The notes under the pieces are model-generated. The model was not told the DNA's origin. It did not search any database and saw nothing but the letters and a program-made list of their open reading frames with translations. The position numbers were made by a program, and so were the translations under genes. 50,219 bases of DNA from Phycisphaerae bacterium (GTDB lineage: Bacteria; Planctomycetota; Phycisphaerae; UBA1845): NCBI GenBank assembly GCA_028282665.1, contig JANQHN010000102.1:1-50219 (forward strand), read 5' to 3'. This document shows positions 25,400 to 38,546 of this stretch, one piece after another. The first letter of the stretch is position 1; each line of letters starts with the position of its first letter.

Positions 25400-25987
25400 A
25401 TGAGTGTGTTCACAAAACTGGACTCGCTGATCGAAAGAGCGCAGCGTAGGGATTCCACCGCTGTGGGCGAAATCGTAGACGTCTATGCAGTACGACTGTA
25501 TCGTTTTCTTTACCGTTTGACAGGCCAACGACAAGACGCCGAAGATCTCGTCCAGGAGGTATTCCTTCGCGTAGTGAGGACTATCGAAGCATACAAACAT
25601 GACGGGAAATTTGAAGCGTGGCTTTTCAGGATCGCCATGAACCTTGCGCGAGATCGGATACGAAAATTGGCACGAGTGCCAGGCATCCTATCCCTCGACG
25701 CCAAACCGGACAGTAATGATTGGATCGAATTGCCCACGCCTGTAGCAAGGATGCCCGAGCGCGAATCGGCAGTGAGCGATCTCGACAACGACGACATGAA
25801 TCGACTGCAGGCCGCTTTGATGACTCTACCTCAGCCGGAACGTGAGATCATCATTTTGCGACACTATTCGAATCTGACTTTCGCCGAGATTGCGGAAGCG
25901 TTCGAAGTTCCGCTGGGTACGGCTCTCGCCAGATCTCATCGAGGTTTGGCAAAGCTGAGGAAAGCGATGGGAGTGGATCAACCGTGA
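25400..25987 (+). CDS. ECF-type RNA polymerase sigma factor
   Basis: A 195-residue sigma-70 family protein with only regions 2 and 4. Region 2 (about residues 25-92) has RLYRFLYRLTGQRQDAEDLV then FLRVVR ... FEAWLFRIAMNLARD. Region 4 (about 130-190) has LPQPEREIIILRHYSNLTFA and EIAEAFEVPLGTALARSHRG, the promoter -35 recognition helix-turn-helix. The start has GGA 7 bp upstream. The next two genes, a single-pass membrane protein and a periplasmic coiled-coil protein, form the usual regulator and sensor set. I could not find a confident autoregulated promoter. Confidence 0.93.
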   Translation: MSVFTKLDSLIERAQRRDSTAVGEIVDVYAVRLYRFLYRLTGQRQDAEDLVQEVFLRVVRTIEAYKHDGKFEAWLFRIAMNLARDRIRKLARVPGILSLDAKPDSNDWIELPTPVARMPERESAVSDLDNDDMNRLQAALMTLPQPEREIIILRHYSNLTFAEIAEAFEVPLGTALARSHRGLAKLRKAMGVDQP

Positions 25988-34289: not shown

Positions 34290-34809
34290 TGATGCTCTCG
34301 CCCTAGAGCCTGCGGATTGGATTTACCATAGACCGCCCGGATATGATTATTGTACGCCGACGACAAACAACGCAGGCGTTCAACCGCGATCCTCTATTTA
34401 CGTTATGCAAAAAGGATAGCGTCACCGAAACCATTGGCACACGCATCCGCACCTAGTTTCGCAGATTGGAAGGGTGACAGACCCCGGTCATGGGGCAGAG
34501 TAAAATACGATTCTACTTGGATAACGTTACATGGCCTTTGATGCCATCATCGCGTCACTGCAATTTACAGTCCTATTGCACCCTTCCAAAACACAACCCC
34601 GTTTTCAGATATCCGTCCAGCAAATAAAGCAACCCTTAGACGGTACTAACGTGGTGTGCGCTATTCTGTCGATGTGAGTATTTTAGGCATGCAAATAAGG
34701 CTAGCCTGCGCACTGTCTACACATTAGGATAGCTTGGCGTCTTTTGAATGTGCGTCCGATATTCGACTTGCCCGACCCAAAATCCGCCCGAGTGATTGGG
34801 AGTCTGAAA
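34290..34809. other. Intergenic region between kinase and MarR-type regulator
   Basis: No supported gene or RNA. It holds the start regions of two divergent units and, at 34687-34721, a bipartite element repeated upstream of the gene at 35440. A frame open from TTG 34744 joins the MarR gene, but the better start is GTG 34810. Confidence 0.5.
34687..34721 (+). promoter_or_regulatory. Bipartite element, copy 1 (upstream of MarR gene)
   Basis: GCATGC, then 15 bp, then GCGCACTGTCTACA, preceded by TATTTT. The same two blocks with the same 15-bp spacing recur at 35313-35347. The end of this copy is 88 bp from the GTG of the MarR gene, against 92 bp between copy 2 and its gene. The element is best read as a promoter or shared operator. 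Confidence 0.55.
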
Positions 34810-35280
34810 GTGACCGATGAATCGCGATTATTAGCCATGGCAGAGGAAATCTTCGATCTTAGCGTCCTAGCTTCGCTAAGGAGAAGTTCCACACGCTCTG
34901 CCAAAACACCCGACGTCTCCGAAACTGAATTTTTAACCTTGGACATCCTCGCGAAGCATGAGCCGATAACGATCGGCGAAATCCAGAAGAAGGTTGGAGT
35001 CGTACCTGCCCAGATGTCGCGCATCGTCAGGACTCTTGAGGACACCGGCGGAAAGGGTTTTGTGCACTGCTCCATCAATCCCGAAGATCGCCGCCGAGTC
35101 GATCTGACGCTAACAGACGACGGGAAAAAGATTTACGAGTCCTACAGAAGCGAACGACTCAAGTCGACCGTGGATGTTCTCAAAGCTCTCTCTGCCGATG
35201 ATCAGGAGCACTTTCTTCGTATCCTACGCAAGATTCGCGACCACGTGGCGAAGTCCATACGCCGTAAATCACCTAAATAA
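34810..35280 (+). CDS. MarR-family winged-helix regulator
   Basis: A DNA-binding regulator of 156 residues with the MarR layout: N-terminal dimer helices, then EFLTLDILAKHEPITIGEIQ, the recognition-helix region KVGVVPAQMSRIVRTLEDTG, the wing with NPEDRRRVDLTLTDDGK, and C-terminal dimer helices. GTG 34810 is preferred because GGGAG lies 7 bp upstream and the length then matches the family; the frame stays open to TTG 34744. The 35-bp element shared with the next gene's promoter suggests that it controls itself and that gene, or that both are controlled by a third factor. Confidence 0.85.
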   Translation: MTDESRLLAMAEEIFDLSVLASLRRSSTRSAKTPDVSETEFLTLDILAKHEPITIGEIQKKVGVVPAQMSRIVRTLEDTGGKGFVHCSINPEDRRRVDLTLTDDGKKIYESYRSERLKSTVDVLKALSADDQEHFLRILRKIRDHVAKSIRRKSPK

Positions 35281-35312
35281 AAAGCTTTACGTTTTTCGGA
35301 TTTTTATTTAGC

Positions 35313-35347
35313 GCATGCTAACCTTTCCACGGCGCGCACTGTCTACA
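35313..35347 (+). promoter_or_regulatory. Bipartite element, copy 2 (upstream of Tyr/Arg/His-rich secreted protein gene)
   Basis: GCATGC, 15 bp, GCGCACTGTCTACA, with TATTTA before it. The second block is identical over 14 bp to copy 1 while the 15-bp spacer is mostly different, so the blocks rather than the whole segment are conserved. TGTCTACA contains an imperfect inverted TGT/ACA pair. Confidence 0.55.
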
Positions 35348-35439
35348 TTTTCGTAACGAATGCAAACACGGCGACGGAACTCGCCGAATCAGGCGGTGGG
35401 TGCGTCTGTAAACGGCACTTCAAAAAAGGAGGTATAGAC

Positions 35440-36264
35440 ATGTTCGCACGAAAGCAACACGGGGTCACGCTCGCAGTCGGATTGGGCCTGTTGTTCACGA
35501 CTACGTTCGCGGAGCGAGCTTCCGGTCAATACCATTACGATGATCATCGCAGCTATCGGTCGTACTACGATGAAATCGACGCTCTTTCGACCGGCACCAG
35601 CTATATGCCGACGCAACGTATATCCTGCGACCGAGACCCGTATCATCCGAGCAAGGCGGTATACTACGATGAGTCGAGATACGCAAACCAAGTCTATGGC
35701 GAACCCGTTTACGTCAACAGCACTGCCTGCCAACCCGTAGTGAGAACTAACTATTGTTCGGAGCCGGTCCACCGCACTACGTATCGACGGCGCACTGTCA
35801 AACAGCATCGGGAGGTCCGACGAACGCGCGTTTACGCACCGCATCGCTCCTATGCAGTTACGCCGAGTGTTCACGTAACCTACAGAGGACCAAATGTGCG
35901 GATGATCAAGCCCCGTCGTGAAGTCAGAGTGGTTACTCCCAGGCGTTCTGCGCGACTTGTCGTTCCCAGCCATCGCAGAAGCCACTACAGGCCTTACGAA
36001 GAACTGGTTTTCTCGCCGAGGCATCGAGTGCCGGTCCGCGAGGTCAAGCATCGCCCGTACCGCTCCTTGCGACTCAAGACGCACGATCGGCCGCACTGGC
36101 GCAGCAATCAATATCGTGGGCACAAACATTGGCGTGTCGCCCCGTCCTACAAGGTACGCGTTAACCGTTACGAACCTCGACGAGGCGTCAGTGTGGGTGT
36201 GCACTACCACGATGGATCCGGACGTTACCGCAATGGAGGGATTTCGGTCCGCTACAGGCGATAG
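35440..36264 (+). CDS. Secreted Tyr/Arg/His-rich basic protein, 274 aa
   Basis: A signal peptide (VTLAVGLGLLFTTTFAERASGQ) is followed by a low-complexity, very basic chain dominated by Arg, Tyr, His, Val and Pro (for example RRTVKQHREVRRTRVYAPHR, RGVSVGVHYHDGSGRYRNGG). There is a possible disulfide set (SCDRD, TACQPV, NYCSEP). A near-perfect AAAGGAGG site precedes ATG 35440. No family is recognised. A surface, polysaccharide- or DNA-binding structural role is a guess based on charge. The upstream element at 35313-35347 links its control to the MarR gene. A long antisense frame exists but is composition-driven. Confidence 0.75.
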   Translation: MFARKQHGVTLAVGLGLLFTTTFAERASGQYHYDDHRSYRSYYDEIDALSTGTSYMPTQRISCDRDPYHPSKAVYYDESRYANQVYGEPVYVNSTACQPVVRTNYCSEPVHRTTYRRRTVKQHREVRRTRVYAPHRSYAVTPSVHVTYRGPNVRMIKPRREVRVVTPRRSARLVVPSHRRSHYRPYEELVFSPRHRVPVREVKHRPYRSLRLKTHDRPHWRSNQYRGHKHWRVAPSYKVRVNRYEPRRGVSVGVHYHDGSGRYRNGGISVRYRR

Positions 36265-36425
36265 TGGTTGTCGAACATCATCCGAGAAAATTCCAGGCTT
36301 TTTGCAAATTCTCGAACCGACTTCGGGGCGATGGAGAAGCCTATGGGGCATCCATCGCCCTCCTTGTTGGAGCGAATCTGATCTGAGGCGGTACGCAATT
36401 TCGAAAAAATCCCTAAAATGCGCGG

Positions 36426-38546
36426 ATGGAACAGCAAAACTCAAAAAAACCACTCAATGGGGAAGAAGTTGGCCGCCAGGATTTTTTACCTCCGCTGGGT
36501 AGTGGTACGGATTTAACGAACTATGAAGTGAATGTTTCGCCACGCCGCCTATCGGACCGCGGCCGGCCTACTTATTGGCGACATATCCTTCCATTCGCGA
36601 TATTTCTCCTTGTGCCCATTACGTTCATGGAGGCGATCGGCGGTGGCTTGGTGTACTGGGACGACAATGTTCTGATCCAAAATTTCCACCCCTACTACGA
36701 ATTGAGCGGTCAGAACATTGTCTGGATGTTCACGACATTCGAGATGGGCCACTATCAACCGCTGACTTGGCTCTCCTTCGCCTTAGATGACTATTTCTTT
36801 GACCGAGCAAACGAATATTACCACCTCACGAGCGTTCTTCTACATGGCTTGGCGGCGCTGGCGTTTTACTTTACGGCTCGATTGCTGCTGGTCGCAGGGT
36901 TCGCCCCTGACGAATTTTCCAGTCGCAGGAATGATCTTTTCGTCATGGGGGCGGGTGTGGCCGCGTTGGTCTTTGCGCTTCATCCGCTTCGGGTGGAATC
37001 TGTAGCGTGGCTGGCTGAGAGGCGGGATGTGCTGAGTGGCTTGTTTTTTCTGATTTCGCTTTGGGCATACTTGCGGTACGTCACGGCCCAGCGAATCAAC
37101 GCAATATTCTACATGACCGCCGTGCTTGCTTGTTTGTTATCACTGCTTTCCAAAGCAACCGCAGTAACCATGTTCGCAGTTCTGATCGTACTCGACGTTT
37201 ATCCGTTGAGGCGGTTTGCCCGGGAGAAGTCGGTCTTTCACCCGTTGATCGACAAGATTCCGTTTCTTCTCATGGCGATTGTGGGCGCTGTCCTTGCATT
37301 ACAAGCCCAGGCATACGCCGGAGCGCTTCATTCGCTTGAAGAATATGGAATGTTGTCCAGAATCGCCCAGGCGTGTTACGGGTTGACATTTTACATCGTC
37401 AAAACCGTCTGGCCAACGAACCTAAGCCCGATCTATGAGATTCCCGCACCATCCGTTCTCCTGGGCCGTATGCTATGGCTTAGCCTGCTGGGGTGCGTCA
37501 TTCTCATCGGAATAGGCATCAAATATCGAAAGAAATTCCCCGCGATTCCCGCCGCCCTGTTGATCTACGCCATCCTGCTATCACCGGTCTTGGGTTTCTT
37601 CCAGAGTGGACGACAACTCGTAGCCGATCGGTACAGCTATCTTTCTTGCGGCGGTTTGGCGATTCTCCTGGGGGCGGGACTCATCATGCTGCTAAAAACA
37701 CAGTGGTTTGGTGATCGCAAAAATCGCTTCGCGTTGCTTACGGTCAGTTCCGCGGTGATGATTGTGGCGCTCGCTCACGCTTCTTACGGGCAATCGCGCG
37801 TATGGGTATCGAGGCTCGATTTGTGGCAATACGCTGTCACCGTATCGCCGCAGAGTTCGATCGCGCACACCAATTACGCCGACGCACTGGCCGAAATGGC
37901 TTTCGGCATGCGAACTCTTGATTTGGAATTGTCCGCAGAAGCTTCACAAGTTGCCCACCAACACTATCTGGCTGCGTTGAATCTCAATCCGAACGATCCG
38001 ATCACTTGGCATCACCTCGGGAAATTGCTTTATACCGGGGGGGATCTACGTGCAGCGCGTTATGCCTATTTGCAGGCGTTGCGACGAGACCCGAACAGAC
38101 GGGGCGCTCATCTGGACTTCGCGCGAATTCTGATCCGCCTGGGAGAAACAGAGACAGGAATCAAAGTTTTGCGAGATGGTATGGAAAGAACACCGGGGGA
38201 ACTCGAACTGATAGGATTCGCCGCTGACGTTTTGGCGACGCACCCGGAAGAGATTTACCGCAAACCGGAGGAGGCGCTCGACCTCATCAGCCGTCTCAAT
38301 GAAGCGGTAGGAGGCATGAACGCCTGGATACTGATGATCAAGTCGAGTACAGAGGCTTCGGTCGGTCGATTTGAGAACGCAACCGCCACCGCGAACAAGG
38401 CACTCGCCATCGCCGAGAGTGCAAACAACCGTAGGCTCGCGACTCGTATCGAACGACGACTTTCGTATTATGTAAAAAACGAACCGTACATCATGCATAT
38501 TGAAATGATTGTACCCGCCGAGTTCGGCGAGGATGATAAACACTAA
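36426..38546 (+). CDS. TMTC-like membrane protein with C-terminal TPRs, 706 aa
   Basis: About ten membrane segments (residues 50-480) followed by a TPR region (about 490-640; HYLAALNLNPNDPITWHHLG, AYLQALRRDPNRRGAHLDFA). The membrane part has the family's early DDNVLIQN acidic loop, YQPLTWLSFALDD and the diagnostic HPLRVESVAWLAERRDVLSG, which matches HPxxxEAVAxxxxRxD of TMTC-type mannosyltransferases. It probably transfers a sugar from a lipid donor to protein in the periplasm; donor and target are unknown. The start ATG has only a weak ribosome site. The gene stands alone. Confidence 0.82.
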   Translation: MEQQNSKKPLNGEEVGRQDFLPPLGSGTDLTNYEVNVSPRRLSDRGRPTYWRHILPFAIFLLVPITFMEAIGGGLVYWDDNVLIQNFHPYYELSGQNIVWMFTTFEMGHYQPLTWLSFALDDYFFDRANEYYHLTSVLLHGLAALAFYFTARLLLVAGFAPDEFSSRRNDLFVMGAGVAALVFALHPLRVESVAWLAERRDVLSGLFFLISLWAYLRYVTAQRINAIFYMTAVLACLLSLLSKATAVTMFAVLIVLDVYPLRRFAREKSVFHPLIDKIPFLLMAIVGAVLALQAQAYAGALHSLEEYGMLSRIAQACYGLTFYIVKTVWPTNLSPIYEIPAPSVLLGRMLWLSLLGCVILIGIGIKYRKKFPAIPAALLIYAILLSPVLGFFQSGRQLVADRYSYLSCGGLAILLGAGLIMLLKTQWFGDRKNRFALLTVSSAVMIVALAHASYGQSRVWVSRLDLWQYAVTVSPQSSIAHTNYADALAEMAFGMRTLDLELSAEASQVAHQHYLAALNLNPNDPITWHHLGKLLYTGGDLRAARYAYLQALRRDPNRRGAHLDFARILIRLGETETGIKVLRDGMERTPGELELIGFAADVLATHPEEIYRKPEEALDLISRLNEAVGGMNAWILMIKSSTEASVGRFENATATANKALAIAESANNRRLATRIERRLSYYVKNEPYIMHIEMIVPAEFGEDDKH

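Follow-up and report, generated by a model that had tools for sequence, protein, structure and literature searches.

The gap between a MarR-family regulator gene and a gene for a Tyr/Arg/His-rich secreted protein in a Phycisphaerae bacterium very probably contains a promoter for an ECF sigma factor. The promoter coincides with the second of two copies of a repeated element in the window, which is the whole 50,219-nucleotide stretch of DNA that was analyzed. We favor this assignment because relatives share the motif, because it also stands before ECF and secreted-protein genes, and because copy 2 ranks first when the window is scored with a matrix built from ECF-gene promoters only. The fuller reading, in which the secreted-protein gene is transcribed from copy 2 with the help of an RpoE/SigW-like ECF sigma factor and forms part of a small envelope regulon, is one that we hold with considerable though not complete confidence. 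The features of the locus are as follows.

34646 to 34672, plus strand: second promoter-like site before the MarR gene, CTAAC-N17-GTCGA, rank 2 with the ECF-trained matrix and rank 99 with the target-trained matrix
34687 to 34721, plus strand: copy 1, a diverged and weak version before the MarR gene that matches the original pattern exactly, with -35 TGCAAAT at 34690-34696, -10 GTCTA at 34715-34719, and the same 18-bp spacing as copy 2
34810 to 35280, plus strand: MarR-family regulator gene with a GTG start (a TTG start at 34744 is possible), Pfam MarR E=1.6e-13
35313 to 35347, plus strand: copy 2 as first delimited, an exact match to the original pattern
35316 to 35345, plus strand: copy 2 re-parsed as a probable ECF-type promoter, rank 1 with both matrices and aligned with the motif in relatives
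35440 to 36264, plus strand: gene for the Tyr/Arg/His-rich secreted protein, with a signal peptide recognized by eye and the ribosome-binding site AAAGGAGG

Two copies of the repeated element

The sequence-only reading had described a bipartite element that recurs before two successive genes at nearly equal distances and with differing spacers, and this recurrence is real. The pattern GCATGC-N15-GCGCACTGTCTACA has two exact copies (34687-34721 and 35313-35347) and no match in 100 shuffles. The copies lie 88 bp before the GTG at 34810 and 92 bp before the ATG at 35440, and their spacers are unrelated (4 of 15 positions identical). The sequence they have in common continues upstream by TATTT-N3 (34679-34683 and 35305-35309). 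Across the whole genome (4.46 Mb in 446 contigs), the 14-mer occurs exactly at these two copies only, with one additional site at one mismatch.

Although the repeat stands, the borders drawn around its blocks were slightly misplaced. Alignment with the GCTAAC/GTCTA motif of relatives re-parses copy 2 into a -35 element TGCTAAC at 35316-35322 (core CTAAC at 35318-35322), a 15-bp interval, and ACTGTCTA at 35338-35345, which includes the -10 element (T)GTCTA at 35340-35345. The distance from CTAAC to GTCTA is 18 bp. It follows from this alignment that GCATGC coincides only in part with the conserved block, the -35 element, and that GCGCAC is peculiar to the species of the window. Both hexamers are common to the two copies and yet fall outside the sigma consensus. 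Their sharing could reflect a recent common origin of the copies, or possibly a further factor. A separate 17-bp repeat (82%) is present upstream of the MarR gene as GCAAATAAAGCAACCCT and GCAAATAAGGCTAGCCT (34620-34636 and 34691-34707), and one of its members lies inside the copy 1 spacer.

The two copies were compared using two promoter matrices. Matrix A was built solely from promoters that precede ECF genes in other species and was applied to both strands of the 50-kb window, and matrix B was derived from the promoters between MarR and secreted-protein genes of relatives, excluding that of the window. No other position scores as high as copy 2 with matrix A (20.5 bits, followed by 15.0 and 14.8) or with matrix B (25.6, followed by 14.9). 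Copy 1 ranks tenth with matrix A and fourth with matrix B. The -35 of copy 2 contains the AAC expected of ECF promoters (CTAAC) and that of copy 1 has AAT instead, whereas the -10 sequence GTCTA is present in both, preceded by T rather than C. The spacing between CTAAC and GTCTA is 17 or 18 bp among the loci, a variation that promoters allow.

The MarR locus in related genomes

A MarR relative is present in 64 of 100 related genomes, and most are highly similar; identity to the protein of the window is 38-56% across nearly the full length. A search of genome contigs with the single protein gave no match, and an alignment-based search gave matches mostly in Phycisphaerae with some in Planctomycetia. 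At most family-level loci (Phycisphaerae/Planctomycetota) the gene after MarR runs in the same direction and encodes a protein with a signal peptide and a high content of Tyr, Arg, and His. These proteins resemble the secreted protein of the window in composition and in their place after MarR. The protein of the window matches nothing in Pfam or NCBIfam. Though these proteins differ greatly, their C-terminal tails are alike (GGISVRYRR, RFSVRFGR, and GISFSYHR; window 36220-36264 and loci L005, L006, L015, L019, and L021), and the shared tail is perhaps a sorting or outer-membrane signal.

The intergenic regions of relatives contain GCTAAC-N17/18-GTCTA roughly 70-130 bp before the start of the secreted-protein gene. 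With the matrix trained on ECF-gene promoters, 28 of 50 regions downstream of MarR score at least 14 bits, compared to 0.03 in shuffles. Only one of 50 upstream regions does so, and it is that of the window itself, which holds the site at 34646. The motif is absent where no secreted-protein gene follows MarR (for example L012, L016, L023, L028, L029, L032, L033, L059, L061, L064, L068, and L071), and among 36 further loci from the alignment search, mostly remoter, motif and secreted-protein gene occur together only in L220. In one subgroup (L018, L020, L022, L025, and L026), a sigma-70-like promoter with TTGACA replaces the ECF type before the secreted-protein gene, a change of promoter between orthologous genes.

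This subgroup, together with a well-placed TATACT in L005, L006, and L011, might point to a promoter of the sigma-70 kind that is assisted by an activator at a conserved site, but we consider this very improbable given that GTCTA with its GTC is conserved and TATACT is not, that no sigma-70-like promoter was found in positions 34290-36480 of the window, and that the bipartite motif also heads the ECF gene.

A candidate sigma factor and its other possible targets

ECF systems are marked by an AAC -35, a CGT -10, a cotranscribed anti-sigma gene, and positive autoregulation (review PMC8103513). ECF promoters have been derived from motifs that lie upstream of sigma genes (PMC3817407). The pattern GCTAACT-N14-16-TGTCTA was searched in 50 genomes without regard to genes. 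Five of its eight matches are at the MarR locus, two precede another secreted repeat protein, and one is at the 5' end of an ECF gene. In 39 of the 50 genomes there is a single close orthologue of this ECF, and CTAAC-N16-18-GTGTC[T/C] or a close variant lies directly before the gene in 26 of the 30 orthologues inspected, as would be expected of an autoregulated cognate sigma factor. The protein has regions 2 and 4 and is closest in sequence to the RpoE/SigW/SigH kind. In several genomes it is followed by a transmembrane anti-sigma-like gene, identified by eye. The start codon lies 6-8 bases past the -10 element in L087, L095, L103, L104, and L105, so the sigma mRNA is probably leaderless there.

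The genome of the window is an 88%-complete assembly in which no orthologue of this ECF was found; the best match by sequence has 35% identity, and the best by profile (105 bits) lacks the motif before its gene. None of 12 ECF-like genes in this genome is preceded by the motif. A SigW-like ECF gene within the window (25400-25987, plus strand) was considered as the cognate sigma factor and ruled out, since the CTAAC/GTCTA motif is missing before it. Promoters with a similar AAC/GTC pair could also be read by other ECFs, a point that weighs against assigning copy 2 to this particular sigma factor.

When the window's own genome was searched with CTAAC-N16-18-TGTCTA, four exact matches were found, namely copy 2, two sites before other secreted-protein genes, and one site inside a kinase gene. 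Many random hits in coding regions had been named as an outcome that would speak against the element; matches are few, and three of the four precede secreted-protein genes. The count is not raised over that of the reversed-pattern control (4 versus 7), nor is the count in the 50 genomes above its reversed control, and for such short patterns only the positions of the matches are therefore informative.

The two other secreted proteins have weak FlgT_N and LPP20 matches. An LPP20/FlgT-like secreted gene is kept in 33 of the 50 genomes, and the promoter before it scores at least 11 bits in 24 of 30 cases and at least 14 bits in 16 of 30. The ECF and the LPP20-like gene co-occur across genomes (Fisher p = 0.004), while co-occurrence of the ECF with the motif at the MarR locus is not significant (14/39 versus 2/11, p = 0.47). 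The LPP20/FlgT-like protein (G000:C153:6026-7285; L140, L143) contains three tandem diverged repeats. A second secreted protein with Ser/Ala/Gly-rich repeats (SATATS...NGG; L109-L126, for example L109 and L113) has the promoter in 9 of 17 genes inspected.

These observations are best explained by the following scheme. RNA polymerase carrying the RpoE/SigW-like ECF would read -35 (T)GC[T/A]AAC and -10 (T)GTCTA, 17-18 bp apart, at copy 2. The sigma factor would normally be held by a membrane anti-sigma factor encoded beside its gene. An envelope signal would free it to transcribe its own gene and those of a few secreted proteins, which include the Tyr/Arg/His-rich and LPP20/FlgT-like proteins and, in relatives, the Ser/Ala/Gly-rich repeat protein. 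Our confidence in GTCTA as an ECF -10 element, previously a mere resemblance, is now strong, since a -35 that matches it is present and relatives have an autoregulated ECF gene.

Copy 1 and the promoter of the MarR gene

The proposal that two equal elements unite both genes in one regulon is well supported for copy 2 only, because copy 1 is a weak match and has no counterpart in relatives. Copy 1 might be a chance occurrence or a decaying duplicate, in which case MarR would be expressed from an unrecognized promoter or from CTAAC-N17-GTCGA at 34646. We rate this explanation, which is compatible with copy 2 as an ECF promoter, as a serious one that falls somewhat short of even odds. It accounts for the -35 of copy 1, which reads AAT where AAC is otherwise invariant, and for a rank of only 4 to 10, and the 34646 site ranks second with the ECF-trained matrix. 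That site drops to rank 99 with the target-trained matrix, however, and copy 1 has kept the exact 18-bp spacing, GCATGC, and 14 bases of the -10 block though its spacer has wholly diverged, which suggests selection. If copy 1 does function as a weakened promoter, then MarR may belong to the regulon in this species.

A possible role for MarR

The repeated element in both copies could instead be a MarR operator, bound before the regulator's own gene and the secreted-protein gene to repress both. MarR proteins commonly regulate themselves and neighboring genes. This MarR gene adjoins both copies, and the GCATGC and GCGCAC that the copies have in common lie outside the sigma consensus. Against this, the core motif is also present ahead of ECF and LPP20-like genes, away from any MarR locus, and the element is lacking before the MarR genes of relatives, the window being the single exception among 50. 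A different hexamer, AACTAT/ATAGTT, is enriched there (19/50 versus 2.8 in shuffles), whereas GCATGC and GCGCAC are not enriched as family-wide MarR sites. The recognition-helix stretch PAQMSR is invariant, and the MarR site should consequently not have changed wholesale. An operator role for the element is accordingly unlikely, and binding by MarR is not supported, as the motif is also found where there is no MarR, and AACTAT, the likely half-site in relatives, is absent from the upstream and intergenic regions of the window.

Copy 2 as an ECF promoter leaves room for MarR as a local regulator. AACTAT/ATAGTT is found in 17 of 50 intergenic regions of relatives (3.4 in shuffles), six times as an inverted repeat that overlaps the -35 element (GCTAACTAT). 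The intergenic enrichment may in part be an extension of the -35 itself, which does not apply to the enrichment before MarR. This arrangement suggests a second layer of control in which the MarR of relatives would probably act at AACTAT half-sites that share bases with the -35. The earlier linkage of MarR and the secreted protein in one regulon is supported by their conserved tandem order, but the best explanation of their shared control is a sigma factor and not the binding of this element by MarR. A tentative extension, which we offer as rather less than an even bet, is a class-wide Phycisphaerae envelope regulon in which secreted proteins of odd composition are switched on by one ECF and the -35 is joined to a MarR repressor site (AACTAT) as in GCTAACTAT, so that the promoter would fire only with both an envelope signal and a MarR ligand.

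Comparison with known systems

The control element is of a known kind; the regulon itself is without a found description. A literature search of open-licence papers turned up no account of a Phycisphaerae ECF regulon, and nothing relevant to MarR/ECF overlap or Phycisphaerae ECFs appeared among titles and abstracts. An uncultured class would gain a concrete regulon with a promoter sequence, a candidate sigma factor, and secreted targets of unassigned function, and tying the Tyr/Arg/His-rich proteins to an envelope response would give a handle on their role.

Systems in which MarR controls an adjacent target are similar in having a MarR domain (the closest solved relatives here are generic MarR proteins), a conserved neighbor, and a hexamer enriched before the MarR gene of relatives. 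They differ in that the hexamer here, AACTAT, lies across a sigma-specific -35 in relatives and is missing from the window. The RpoE -35 is of the GGAAC type, and the one here is CTAAC. Compared with the RpoE/SigW type, the targets are secreted proteins known in this analysis only from Phycisphaerae, the sigma factor falls below all NCBIfam equivalog cut-offs among the matches listed, and its mRNA looks leaderless in several species. Like the autoregulated ECF promoters of E. coli RpoE and B. subtilis SigW, the motif combines an AAC -35 with a GTC -10 about 17 bp away, and it precedes both a sigma gene, which is followed by an anti-sigma-like gene, and a few envelope genes.
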